From NCBI GenBank assembly GCA_026386805.1, contig JAPLMX010000221.1, forward strand, positions 1 through 64,000: DNA of 64,000 nucleotides. Direction: 5' to 3'. The first letter of the stretch is position 1; the number at the start of each line of letters is the position of its first letter. The DNA is from Phycisphaerae bacterium. Its GTDB lineage: Bacteria > Planctomycetota > Phycisphaerae > Sedimentisphaerales > Anaerobacaceae. Position numbers and translations under genes: made by a program. The notes under the pieces were generated by a model. That model saw only the letters and a program-made list of their open reading frames with translations, did no database searches and had not been told where the DNA came from. Below, piece after piece: positions 3,381-11,463 of this stretch.

Positions 3381-4104
3381 CATGCCTCCTTGCTCTTTAT
3401 AGTTCTCCACTGGGCCCTCCAACTCCTGCACCCGGTGCACTCATTTCGACCTCCCATACCCACACAACCCGCCTCGGGCTCGAACTCATCCCTCGCAGGC
3501 TGATCCGGGGCATCTTCCTGAGAGTATTATGGCGGGGGCAGGAAGAGAGAACAAGTGAAAAATGACACAGAGAAAGGCACGGCGGGACGGTGCGTCGGTG
3601 TGTGGGAAAGTGCGGGAATTCCGGGGACCTCTATGAGCAAGCCGTTGTCAAGCCTGTCCCTTCACAGGGTTCAGGGCAAGCTCTGAGCCTGTCGAAGGGA
3701 CGGTCGCGGGATTTTTCGCGGGAATTCCACCCTCCGTCCCCAGCAGCCCAGTCCGGCCAGGTAATCCCGCCGCCCGGCCTTCGGCCGGAACCAAGATTGC
3801 CTCTCGCCAAGCCGCCAAGAGCGCTGAGAAAAACGAAACCAGATCTGTGTCTTCCCCTTGGCGATCTCTGCGTCTTGGCGCGAGACACAAATCTCTTTGT
3901 TACCCAACAGAGGGAGGAAGGAGGCCCGCGTTTACGCGCTCCTGAGCCGCCTGAAGGCGGTACTCCGAACGGTGTCCCCCGCCCTCTATCCCCGCTCCGT
4001 GGTCTCCGTGCCCTCCGTGGTGGAGAATAACGGGGTTCTTACAGGGCAAGGAGGCTTCTGTGCTCCGGCTCCTCCCCGACGGTCATTGGCGTCCTCCGGG
4101 TGCC
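3381..4104. other. Repeat-rich non-coding spacer
   Basis: No gene is supported. The stretch holds several dispersed repeats: at 3643-3700 two arms of CCCTGAGCCTGTCGAAGGGA type; at 3797-3885 an imperfect palindrome with CGCCAAGCCGCCAAGAG on the left and TTGGCGATCTCTGCGTCTTG on the right; at 3940-3970 CCGCCTGAAGGCGG; and at 3998-4023 three 9-base units of CTCCGTGGT type. Short open frames across these repeats are artefacts. Confidence 0.5.
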
Positions 4105-9591: not shown

Positions 9592-9739
9592 ACGCCCAAT
9601 TCTGCACGACAAAGGACTCGAAAGCCGCGGAGTTGGAACCGCAGATTAACGCCGATGGACGCAGATTTCTCCAACTGAAGAACTGGGAACGGACAACTGG
9701 CAACCGATCTTTGACCGCGAAATACGCCAACCACCCAGC
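9592..9739. repeat. Dispersed repeat remnants before the unknown 516-aa gene
   Basis: Contains the phrase CGCAGATTAACGCCGATGGA and the seven-base-phased run GAACTGG GAACGGA CAACTGG CAACCGA (about 9678-9706). No gene is seen. Confidence 0.4.
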
Positions 9740-9754
9740 GCGGCCTTTGGCCGC
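9740..9754. repeat. Perfect 6-bp hairpin
   Basis: GCGGCC and GGCCGC separated by TTT. It lies 17 bases before the larger hairpin that leads into the 516-aa gene and may mark the left boundary of the same unit. Confidence 0.5.
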
Positions 9755-9771
9755 AACCAAAGGGAGTGAAA

Positions 9772-9835
9772 GGCGTTGCCCTTTCGTGTACGGTATTGCT
9801 TTTGCCAAACAGTACCGTTCGAAAGGAGCAACGCC
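9772..9835 (+). promoter_or_regulatory. Long hairpin that buries a ribosome binding site
   Basis: Three paired blocks form one nearly continuous stem: GGCGTTGC with GCAACGCC, CTTTCG with CGAAAG, and ACGGTA with TACCGT, 20 base pairs around a 17-base loop. The stem ends exactly at the base before the ATG of the next gene, and the Shine-Dalgarno AAAGGAG (9822-9828) is inside its 3' arm. If formed in RNA it would block translation initiation. This resembles the 5' hairpin of IS200-type transposase mRNAs in logic, though not in sequence. Confidence 0.7.
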
Positions 9836-11386
9836 ATGGATGCCTTTATCCAGAAGTACCAGAAGAATGTCACGGGGGTTCTCAACGGATGGGATCGCGT
9901 TCGGATTCGGGGCATGCAGAAAATCCTGGCCAATGTCGGGGGCATGATGAGCTACCTGTCCCACATCGGCGTGCTGATGAAGGATTTCGGTGGCTTTGTC
10001 GAACGGACCTGTCTGCGGGTCCGACAGGCCTCCGAGCAGGCGGCCCGCCGGTTGGACCGACCGGTTCAGTACCTGTTCTCCTCGGCCCTGGACAAGTATC
10101 AAGAGGCTCAGAACATCGCCCGCCAGGACCAAGTGAAGGAAGGGCTCGTGTGCGTGTTCAGTTGTGTTGAGCCGTGCCTGGCTTACAAGGTGCAGCCGGA
10201 CCGTGCGACCAAGACGATCTCCTTGCAGATGGCGCCGCGCAAATGCGTGCCTCTGTACCACTACTGGATGAACAAGGACTTTGGCCTGATGCACGCGCGC
10301 TTGCAGACGTGGTTTCCCTTTACCCTCGAGGTCTGTTTCAACGGCCGTTCCTGGCTGGCCCGGCAGATGGATCAACAAGGGCTGGGCTACCAGCAGCGGG
10401 ACAACTGTTTCACCTGGCTCCAAGACGTTCAGGCCAGTCAGCAACTCATGGAGCAATTGCTCCGGTTTCGCTGGCCAGCCTTCCTGCAATCGCTCGCCGA
10501 TCAGGTTCACCCCCTGCAAAAGGACATTCTCCAGGGCTTCCGTACGGAATATTACTGGTCGATGACGGAGAGCGAATGGGCCACCGATGTGATGTTTGAT
10601 TCGCCCAGAGCTCTGGCCCGAGTGTACCCTTCCCTGGTCGAGGGGGCGATGACAACCTTCTCGAGCCGGGATGTGATGCGGTATTTGGGCAAGAAGCCCA
10701 GCGGTCCTTTTAAGGGCGAGGTCGTCAGCTCCTATCTGCATCGTCCCGAGGGTGTTCGCGTCAAGCACAGCGTCCAGAGCAACTCCGTGAAGAGGTACGA
10801 CAAGCAAGGCAATGTCCTGCGGATCGAGACTACGATGAACGATCCCTATCGCTTCAAGGCGTACCGTCCGAAAGAAAGCGATCCGAAGGGACCCCGGCAA
10901 TGGCGTTACCTACGCAAAGGCGTGGCCGATGCCCAGCGCCGGGCCGAGATCTGCCAGGGCGTCAATGACCGCTATCTGGAAGCCTTGGCCTCTTTGGAGA
11001 GTGAAATCCCCATCAAGCAACTGGTGGCTTCGGTCTGTCGCCCCACGCGTTGGAAACGCCGGCCCATGCGTGCGTTGCACCCTTGGTCTGCGGTCGATCA
11101 AGAGCTTCTGGCGGTCATCAGTCGGGGCGAGTACGTCCTGCAAGGATTCCGCAATCGGGATCTGGTGGCTCATCTTTATCCCAAGGTGTGCGGTGACCCC
11201 GAAGAACAACATCGCGCTTCCGCACGGGTCACGCGTCTCCTTCGGCTGTTGCGTGCCCACAGCTTGGTCCGCAAGATCTCCGGCACGCATCGCTACCGTC
11301 TGACCCCCAAAGGCCGTGAAATCACCACGGCCGTTCTGCGTTATCAAAGTGCCACCCTGCAACAACTTAGCAAAATATCCGCTTGA
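9836..11386 (+). CDS. Unrecognised 516-aa protein, possible mobile-element gene
   Basis: The product starts MDAFIQKYQKNVTGVLNGWD and contains LVCVFSCVEPCLAYKV, a tryptophan- and tyrosine-rich middle (LYHYWMNKDFGLMHARLQTW; EYYWSMTESEWATD) and MTTFSSRDVMRYLG. The last 90 residues, ending TRLLRLLRAHSLVRKISGTH then RYRLTPKGREI, look like a winged-helix DNA-binding domain. I recall similar proteins as multi-copy hypotheticals in planctomycete and related metagenome bins; no catalytic motif of a known transposase is visible. There is no signal peptide. Start ATG abuts the regulatory hairpin. It stands alone among repeats and broken genes, which fits a mobile origin, but no terminal repeats were found. 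Confidence 0.75.
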   Translation: MDAFIQKYQKNVTGVLNGWDRVRIRGMQKILANVGGMMSYLSHIGVLMKDFGGFVERTCLRVRQASEQAARRLDRPVQYLFSSALDKYQEAQNIARQDQVKEGLVCVFSCVEPCLAYKVQPDRATKTISLQMAPRKCVPLYHYWMNKDFGLMHARLQTWFPFTLEVCFNGRSWLARQMDQQGLGYQQRDNCFTWLQDVQASQQLMEQLLRFRWPAFLQSLADQVHPLQKDILQGFRTEYYWSMTESEWATDVMFDSPRALARVYPSLVEGAMTTFSSRDVMRYLGKKPSGPFKGEVVSSYLHRPEGVRVKHSVQSNSVKRYDKQGNVLRIETTMNDPYRFKAYRPKESDPKGPRQWRYLRKGVADAQRRAEICQGVNDRYLEALASLESEIPIKQLVASVCRPTRWKRRPMRALHPWSAVDQELLAVISRGEYVLQGFRNRDLVAHLYPKVCGDPEEQHRASARVTRLLRLLRAHSLVRKISGTHRYRLTPKGREITTAVLRYQSATLQQLSKISA

Positions 11387-11463
11387 TAAATCTGCGCAAG
11401 AAAACAAGATTCGGACAAGTAGCAATGCGAAAGACAAAGCACAAACCGACCACCGACTACTGA

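Follow-up and report, generated by a model that had tools for sequence, protein, structure and literature searches.

A Single-Gene Insertion Sequence With a Hairpin Leader and a Putative Rep_trans-Type Transposase in a Phycisphaerae Bacterium

Introduction

To our knowledge, the transposases of bacteria fall into only a few catalytic classes, namely the DDE, HUH, serine and tyrosine recombinase enzymes. IS200/IS605 elements rely on an HUH enzyme of about 150 aa, and IS200 possesses a leader hairpin; the muting of read-through expression by such hairpins is known from both IS10 and IS200. Rolling-circle replication initiators of the Rep_trans type have an active site in which Tyr191 lies between Arg189 and Lys193 on one strand, Arg212-x-Glu214 lies on another and D46, D142 and E214 are the metal ligands (PMC4797284). 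The motif names used here for this site (N', I, II, III, and IV) are taken from PMC5714925. 

Here, we describe a locus in the window, that is, the whole 64,000-nucleotide stretch of DNA from a Phycisphaerae bacterium that was analyzed. As a whole, it is likely to be an autonomous insertion sequence that encodes a TBP-like, Rep_trans-type tyrosine nuclease with a winged-helix tail and that carries a hairpin as a brake, this being the best explanation we can offer. Its parts are as follows.

9735..11426, + strand: whole element, 1,692 bp, with left end, hairpin leader, single gene and right end
Flanks of the element in the window: ..CCAC^ on the left, ^GCGAAAG on the right
9735..9761, + strand: left end, CCAGC + GCGGCC-TTT-GGCCGC hairpin + AACCAAA
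9772..9835, + strand: predicted leader hairpin of the mRNA, pairing the ribosome binding site
9824..9828, + strand: AGGAG, putative ribosome binding site in the 3' arm of the hairpin, identified by sequence
9836..11386, + strand: transposase gene (activity inferred), 516 aa plus stop, with a predicted TBP-like catalytic domain and a C-terminal winged helix
11382..11426, + strand: right end, ..AAATCTGCGCAAGAAAACAAGATTCGGACAAGTAGCAAT^, from a profile of 10 gene-bearing right ends

Extent and Distribution of the Element

The ends of the window element were set by comparison with three 1,700-bp copies in a one-contig planctomycete genome (G147) and with the close relatives L003 and L014, together with left- and right-end profile matches in the window. 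The three G147 copies show 0-2 differences and have unrelated flanks, and their ends are defined because identity breaks off at identical bases in all three, giving boundaries that read C^CTAGCGCGGCCTTTGGCCGCAACC.. on the left and ..GATGGATAGTAGT^AC on the right. In L003 and L014, similarity to the window is lost at the same points as the element ends. The left boundary at 9735 is ~37 bp upstream of the leader hairpin, a point on which the first-pass annotation (whose piece began at 9740) is corrected. The left-end sequence is common to copies from other orders, and in a second subfamily it is replaced by CTAACCCGGCATAGCCGGAACCAAA, unlike the GC hairpin and AACCAAA of the window's subfamily. 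The right end is conserved over ~45 nt, and its profile matches the window at 11383-11426 with an E of 5e-7, the window itself being one training row. As single-stranded DNA, the left end folds with a z of only -1.3, and the right end has no stable fold as DNA. The idea that the right end repeats a hairpin arm was dropped, having been seen only in G147/L058-like copies. As far as sequence comparison can establish it, the unit is mobile as a whole and its ends are fixed, and there is very little doubt that window positions 9735-11426 are a mobile element, an autonomous insertion sequence with one gene.

The host genome (5.55 Mb in 279 contigs) holds two copies of the gene, with proteins that are 41% identical. 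When relatives are included, matches are found in 12 of 61 genomes, where they are scattered, several being only pieces and others containing stops; the G002 copy has an internal deletion that joins aa 11-263 to 460-516. Phylum-wide presence is likewise patchy (24 of 392 genomes). A first contig search with a single protein as the query returned no relative, and a query with the family alignment succeeded, retrieving 79 loci from many phyla. The first-pass annotation had suspected an undescribed single-gene mobile element with multi-copy relatives in planctomycetes; both suspicions are supported by the scattered and often broken matches and by the near-identical G147 copies at unrelated sites, and the single-copy, syntenic distribution that would have refuted them was not seen. 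The conserved ends that it expected from a comparison of copies with their flanks were found, and the target duplications were not.

Several loci in other organisms deserve description in their own right. On plasmid pOLGA1 (L174, 6001-7515), a family member annotated as an ‘ArsR family transcriptional regulator’ lies between two cytochrome c genes. At four loci from several phyla (L072, L120, L106, and L128), the gene is followed by a divergent paralogue of ~545 aa, which retains the Tyr and acidic residues. The interval of ~110-200 bp contains a right-end-like GGTACTACG (in three of the four) and a hairpin of the CTTTTTCGGAG..CTCCGAAAAAG type before the paralogue, and it is possible that these pairs are compound or two-transposase elements. 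At L062 (about 2828-2860), a right end abuts a left end head-to-tail, an arrangement that a circular or tandem product would give.

Gene-Less Derivatives

The host genome contains 28 exact occurrences of the left-end pattern, versus two gene copies. Among the 21 genomes scanned, it is also present in G003 (30 occurrences), G005 (18), G008 (7), G006 (6), G002 (5), G001 (2), G004 (2), and G038 (1), with none in the other 12 and none for a reversed-pattern control in any genome. G001, G004, and G038 have the pattern without the gene, and G037 has the gene without the pattern. For further analysis, 26 stretches of the host genome (holding 27 sites besides that of the window) and 14 stretches from other genomes were retrieved, and 40 of the 43 listed left-end places were tested, those with fewer than 100 bases to the right being excluded. 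The right-end profile was built solely from the 10 gene-bearing copies, with training rows chosen by eye before counting. A right end on the same strand and within 600 bases follows 27 of these 40 gene-less left ends, as opposed to 0/40 in the reverse-complement control, and on this ground we conclude that short gene-less derivatives exist. These 27 units measure 185-311 bp and belong to a few sequence families, with 18 in loci of the host genome. Having both ends in common with an autonomous element, they meet the criterion for MITE/REPIN-like derivatives.

The interior of the gene-less loci L241-L280 is often a long palindrome of intergenic repeat words that are also used as targets (CGCCAAGACGC, CACGAAGACACGAAG). 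Because of this shared use, the repeats may be cargo and target together. Elsewhere in the window, on the + strand at 3775-3794, a left-end-like GGCCTTCGGCCGGAACC is followed by a CTCGCCAAG..TTGGCGCGAG palindrome; this is probably a related gene-less element, for which no right end was found.

Target Sites

Neither inverted ends nor a target duplication is present in the three G147 copies. When joined, the flanks of these copies and those of the window element read C^AC or C^GC. This preference extends to a set of 31 elements, composed of six gene-bearing copies and the 27 gene-less units minus two (one nested, one with a misplaced end), in which the left flank ends in C in 30/31 and the right flank starts with RC in 28/31. 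Several of these elements have families and targets in common, so the 31 do not count as independent. The comparison of flanks places insertion at C^RC, and the AC or GC after the right end looks like target sequence, given that two relatives without G147 copy c have CCCAC(C/A)GA at the corresponding point.

In eight of the 31 elements, joining the flanks yields a stem of at least 6 pairs that spans the insertion junction and closes a loop of 3-6 bases, and the insertion point is where the loop ends on its 3' side, as in CCCCTGC-CTTC^-GCAGGGG. Permuted flanks gave a mean of 1.2 such hairpins and a maximum of 6, the observed 8 being reached in 0/2000 permutations. Insertions also occur in intergenic repeats, for example CACGGAGACC^ACGGAG. 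The direct-repeat score of the flanks is barely higher than that of permuted flanks (mean 5.0 versus 4.5, reached in 1/2000), and the count measure gave 0/31. It appears that the element has seeded hairpins and repeats of its host genome with many short copies that lack the gene.

A full empty site was sought for G147 copies a and c and for a subfamily-2 copy in G272, and none of these was clean. For copy a, a reading frame is restored to which relatives can be aligned, with a DNA match that crosses the junction only in G329 (73%, by 5 nt). At the G272 copy, three of four sister genomes already have the CTAA of the right flank at the corresponding position, and the remaining one reads CAAG. 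At copy c and at the G272 copy, orthology with relatives is confined to the right flank and does not extend to the left one, so an adjacent deletion or rearrangement, or a more complicated insertion event, may have taken place.

The Leader Hairpin

A hairpin of three matched blocks at 9772-9835, abutting the start codon of a 516-aa reading frame and holding the Shine-Dalgarno sequence in its 3' arm, had been reported by the first-pass annotation, and each of these details is present. The blocks are GGCGTTGC/GCAACGCC, CCTTTCG/CGAAAGG, and ACGGTATTG/CAGTACCGT, with 24 predicted pairs, and the 3' arm ends at 9835, adjoining the ATG at 9836. The RNA of 9760-9850 folds at -41.9 kcal/mol, which none of 200 dinucleotide shuffles equaled (z -7.2). 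With subfamily labels assigned by eye before the leaders were counted, 13 of the 19 subfamily-1 leaders (93 nt) have z<-2 and 7/19 have z<-3. The 24 leaders of subfamily 2 are about at background (3/24 and 0/24, respectively), as judged from 33 other long reading frames of the window (2/33 and 1/33).

In 13 chosen members of subfamily 1, the arm sequences are unrelated and the stem still pairs the region just upstream of the start. Compensatory variation of the arms, which had been proposed as a check, is also seen among close copies: between the window and three decayed copies, two pairs have changed on both sides. The same comparison contains four pairs with cells that are unpaired in the register of the window, each copy folding well alone, and with only 3 distinct rows this evidence is weak. 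Neither a terminator nor a sigma-70 promoter was found around the leader by consensus search. In our estimation, it is plausible, and moderately likely, that the hairpin is a translational brake, a function that is inferred.

It is also conceivable that the hairpin is mainly a DNA signal, an origin-like cruciform bound by the enzyme, with masking of the ribosome binding site as a by-product. The leader lies inside the element and close to its left end, and initiators of the pT181 type act on hairpins beside their binding site (PMC4797284). This possibility is rather unlikely, however, as no leader hairpin was seen in the gene-less units even though they keep both ends, an observation that favors a role in gene expression. 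Furthermore, the arms of subfamily-1 hairpins have no common sequence, and their 3' arm stops no more than 3 nt from the start codon.

The Encoded Protein

The residues and domains to which we refer are listed below.

aa 1-390 of the 516-aa protein: predicted TBP-like catalytic domain
9893..9895, + strand: codon of D20, invariant (45/45), proposed equivalent of the Rep_trans metal ligand D46 (motif N')
10574..10576, + strand: codon of E247 (44/45), proposed metal ligand in place of Rep_trans D142 (motif I)
10790..10804, + strand: codons of K319-x-Y321-x-K323, with Y321 (45/45) as proposed nucleophile on a beta strand (motif III)
10820..10828, + strand: codons of R329-x-E331 (each 45/45), motif IV, with the proposed third metal ligand
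11090..11350, + strand: predicted winged-helix domain (MarR/ArsR-like), aa 419-505, from VIA-align to 2qww, with weak HTH matches in some members

In Pfam, NCBIfam, and PHROGs, no family covers the catalytic part, and these libraries, like a PDB sequence search, returned winged-helix or chance matches only. PF02486 (Rep_trans) matched neither the window protein nor the 45 family members, and hhalign against a Rep_trans profile of five phage members found no link (E 0.67). The initial impression of a protein without a known catalytic motif therefore holds for sequence searches; it does not hold for the predicted structure and residue pattern, which are Rep_trans-like. An AlphaFold2 model made with the 45 members (pLDDT 91) suggests a TBP-like fold that resembles Rep_trans initiators, with a recognizable active-site pattern. 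For the whole protein, the top Foldseek match in the PDB is the Rep_trans rolling-circle initiator 4cij (probability 0.97, E 4e-3), and VIA-align gives Z 8.3 to TBP and 6.3-6.6 to Rep_trans over 204-211 residues. The anticipated winged-helix-like end appears in the model as a C-terminal winged helix, with Z 8.2 to the MarR-type 2qww over 94 residues.

The residue pattern points to the same group. Among the 45 members, D20, Y321, R329, and E331 are invariant, E247 and K319 are each conserved in 44 and K323 in 42. Y321, the sole invariant tyrosine, lies on strand 316-323, and R329 and E331 lie on the consecutive strand 327-334; the first long strand contains D20, and strand 239-254 contains E247. 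The order D20, E247, K-x-Y321-x-K, R-x-E331 is that of the published Rep_trans active site, and Rep_trans proteins of phages and plasmids that were retrieved as references have the same order of RxD, YxK, and RxE. Motif I reads QxE in place of RxD, and RxKH stands at the position of motif II (T/SxY/ExG), without a clear match. Because the profile comparison finds no homology, Rep_trans is used here for a likeness of fold and site, with membership unproven. From the model and the residue pattern, we infer with good confidence that the enzyme is a Rep_trans-type transposase, for which no intermediate or activity is known.

Alternatively, the element may be real and its enzyme of another nuclease class, whether DDE, HUH, or new, the TBP and Rep_trans likeness being a common fold arrangement. 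The catalytic domain alone reaches only middling values (over 179-188 residues, Z is 8.7 with TBP and 7.0 with 4cij/4cwe), and common fold arrangements also score in the range of Z 7-8.7. In addition, the first Foldseek match of this domain is the unrelated 4xrw (E 1.3e-4, TM 0.2), and hhalign found nothing. The absence of RNase H-fold DDE or HUH chains among the fold matches listed excludes nothing and is not counted as proof. We nonetheless regard another nuclease class as unlikely: there is no conserved HxH, the most conserved histidine being present in 34/45, and the only invariant tyrosine sits on a strand in K-x-Y-x-K, followed by R-x-E and accompanied by an N-terminal D, as in Rep_trans.

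Discussion

The excess of 28 left ends over two gene copies in the host genome could suggest a domesticated host gene that spreads only short repeats, as RAYT-like genes do, with occasional duplication. This is very unlikely. Conserved synteny of the gene was not seen, and the near-identical whole copies in G147, together with the broken, patchy copies in sister species, indicate self-mobility and loss. Weakest of all is the highly improbable proposal that the protein is the replication initiator of an integrated rolling-circle plasmid or a phage remnant, since, despite its initiator-like fold and the occurrence of Rep_trans proteins in plasmids, phages, and conjugative elements (PMC5714925), the repeated unit is this gene alone between fixed ends, with a target preference and gene-less derivatives, and a search of one family member against 50,697 phage records gave no match.

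For the favored reading, that of an insertion sequence with a Rep_trans-type transposase, a mechanism can be proposed. Block movement, the ends, the C^RC target, and the gene-less derivatives are read from sequence, while the chemistry of transposition and the function of the hairpin are inferred. The enzyme may bind the element ends through its winged helix, with the left-end hairpin in single-stranded form. Y321 would then nick one strand, with the metal held by D20, E247, and E331. After nicking, the ends would be joined and the strand would reinsert at C^RC, often where the loop of a small hairpin meets its 3' arm. In transcripts with the whole leader, including read-through from outside, the hairpin at 9772-9835 would keep translation low and would open only rarely.

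No report of a Rep_trans transposase was found in the open-licence PMC literature. The parts consulted of PMC4797284, PMC13107129, PMC5714925, PMC3733652, and PMC6006769 describe none. ISfinder and subscription papers were outside the search, and ‘undescribed’ is therefore limited to open-licence PMC. With somewhat less assurance than for the element itself, we propose that it represents an additional catalytic class of transposase in bacteria. Its enzyme would be a tyrosine nuclease of the Rep_trans rather than the HUH type and would transpose single strands into C^RC sites and hairpin loops. Enzymes of this class would be present across many phyla, bearing labels such as ‘ArsR regulator’, and would account for part of the dispersed intergenic palindromes in planctomycete genomes. 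If true, a Rep_trans-like transposase would add one more catalytic class and would link plasmid and phage initiators with transposition along a second path, independent of the HUH one. The element family is also a testable source for some of the abundant palindromic repeats of planctomycetes, the annotation of a family labeled as regulators or hypothetical proteins is corrected, and insertion into hairpin loops could serve as a DNA-targeting property.

Comparison With Known Systems

Among described elements, IS91/ISCR and Helitrons are transposons of the rolling-circle style that also lack duplications (PMC5714925). They use HUH enzymes with two tyrosines and have other ends and targets, whereas the window protein has one invariant tyrosine and no HUH. 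IS200/IS605 and REP/RAYT systems (TnpA-Y1) are similar in outline, with a hairpin end, no inverted ends, no duplication, and short gene-less palindromic derivatives (PMC6006769). They differ in having an HUH enzyme, compared with a 516-aa protein without HUH. Of the hairpins at both ends that mark IS200/IS605, the window element has the left one, its right end being without a stable fold. The Rep-Arvir initiators of archaeal viruses likewise combine a winged helix with a Rep_trans-like TBP fold, the latter being invisible from sequence and apparent only in structure; they are archaeal and drive virus or plasmid replication, not transposition (PMC13107129). The Rep_trans initiators themselves (PF02486; pT181 RepC/RepD, RepSTK1, phage and ICE members) are similar in active-site pattern and predicted fold. 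The transposase is unlike them in having no sequence match, QxE for RxD, an unrecognizable motif II, and ~130 extra residues between the first two motifs, and in being alone in its transposing unit. What the two have in common, beyond the predicted TBP-like fold, is a tyrosine in [KR]xYxK on a strand, RxE on a later strand, an N-terminal Asp, and a C-terminal DNA-binding domain.
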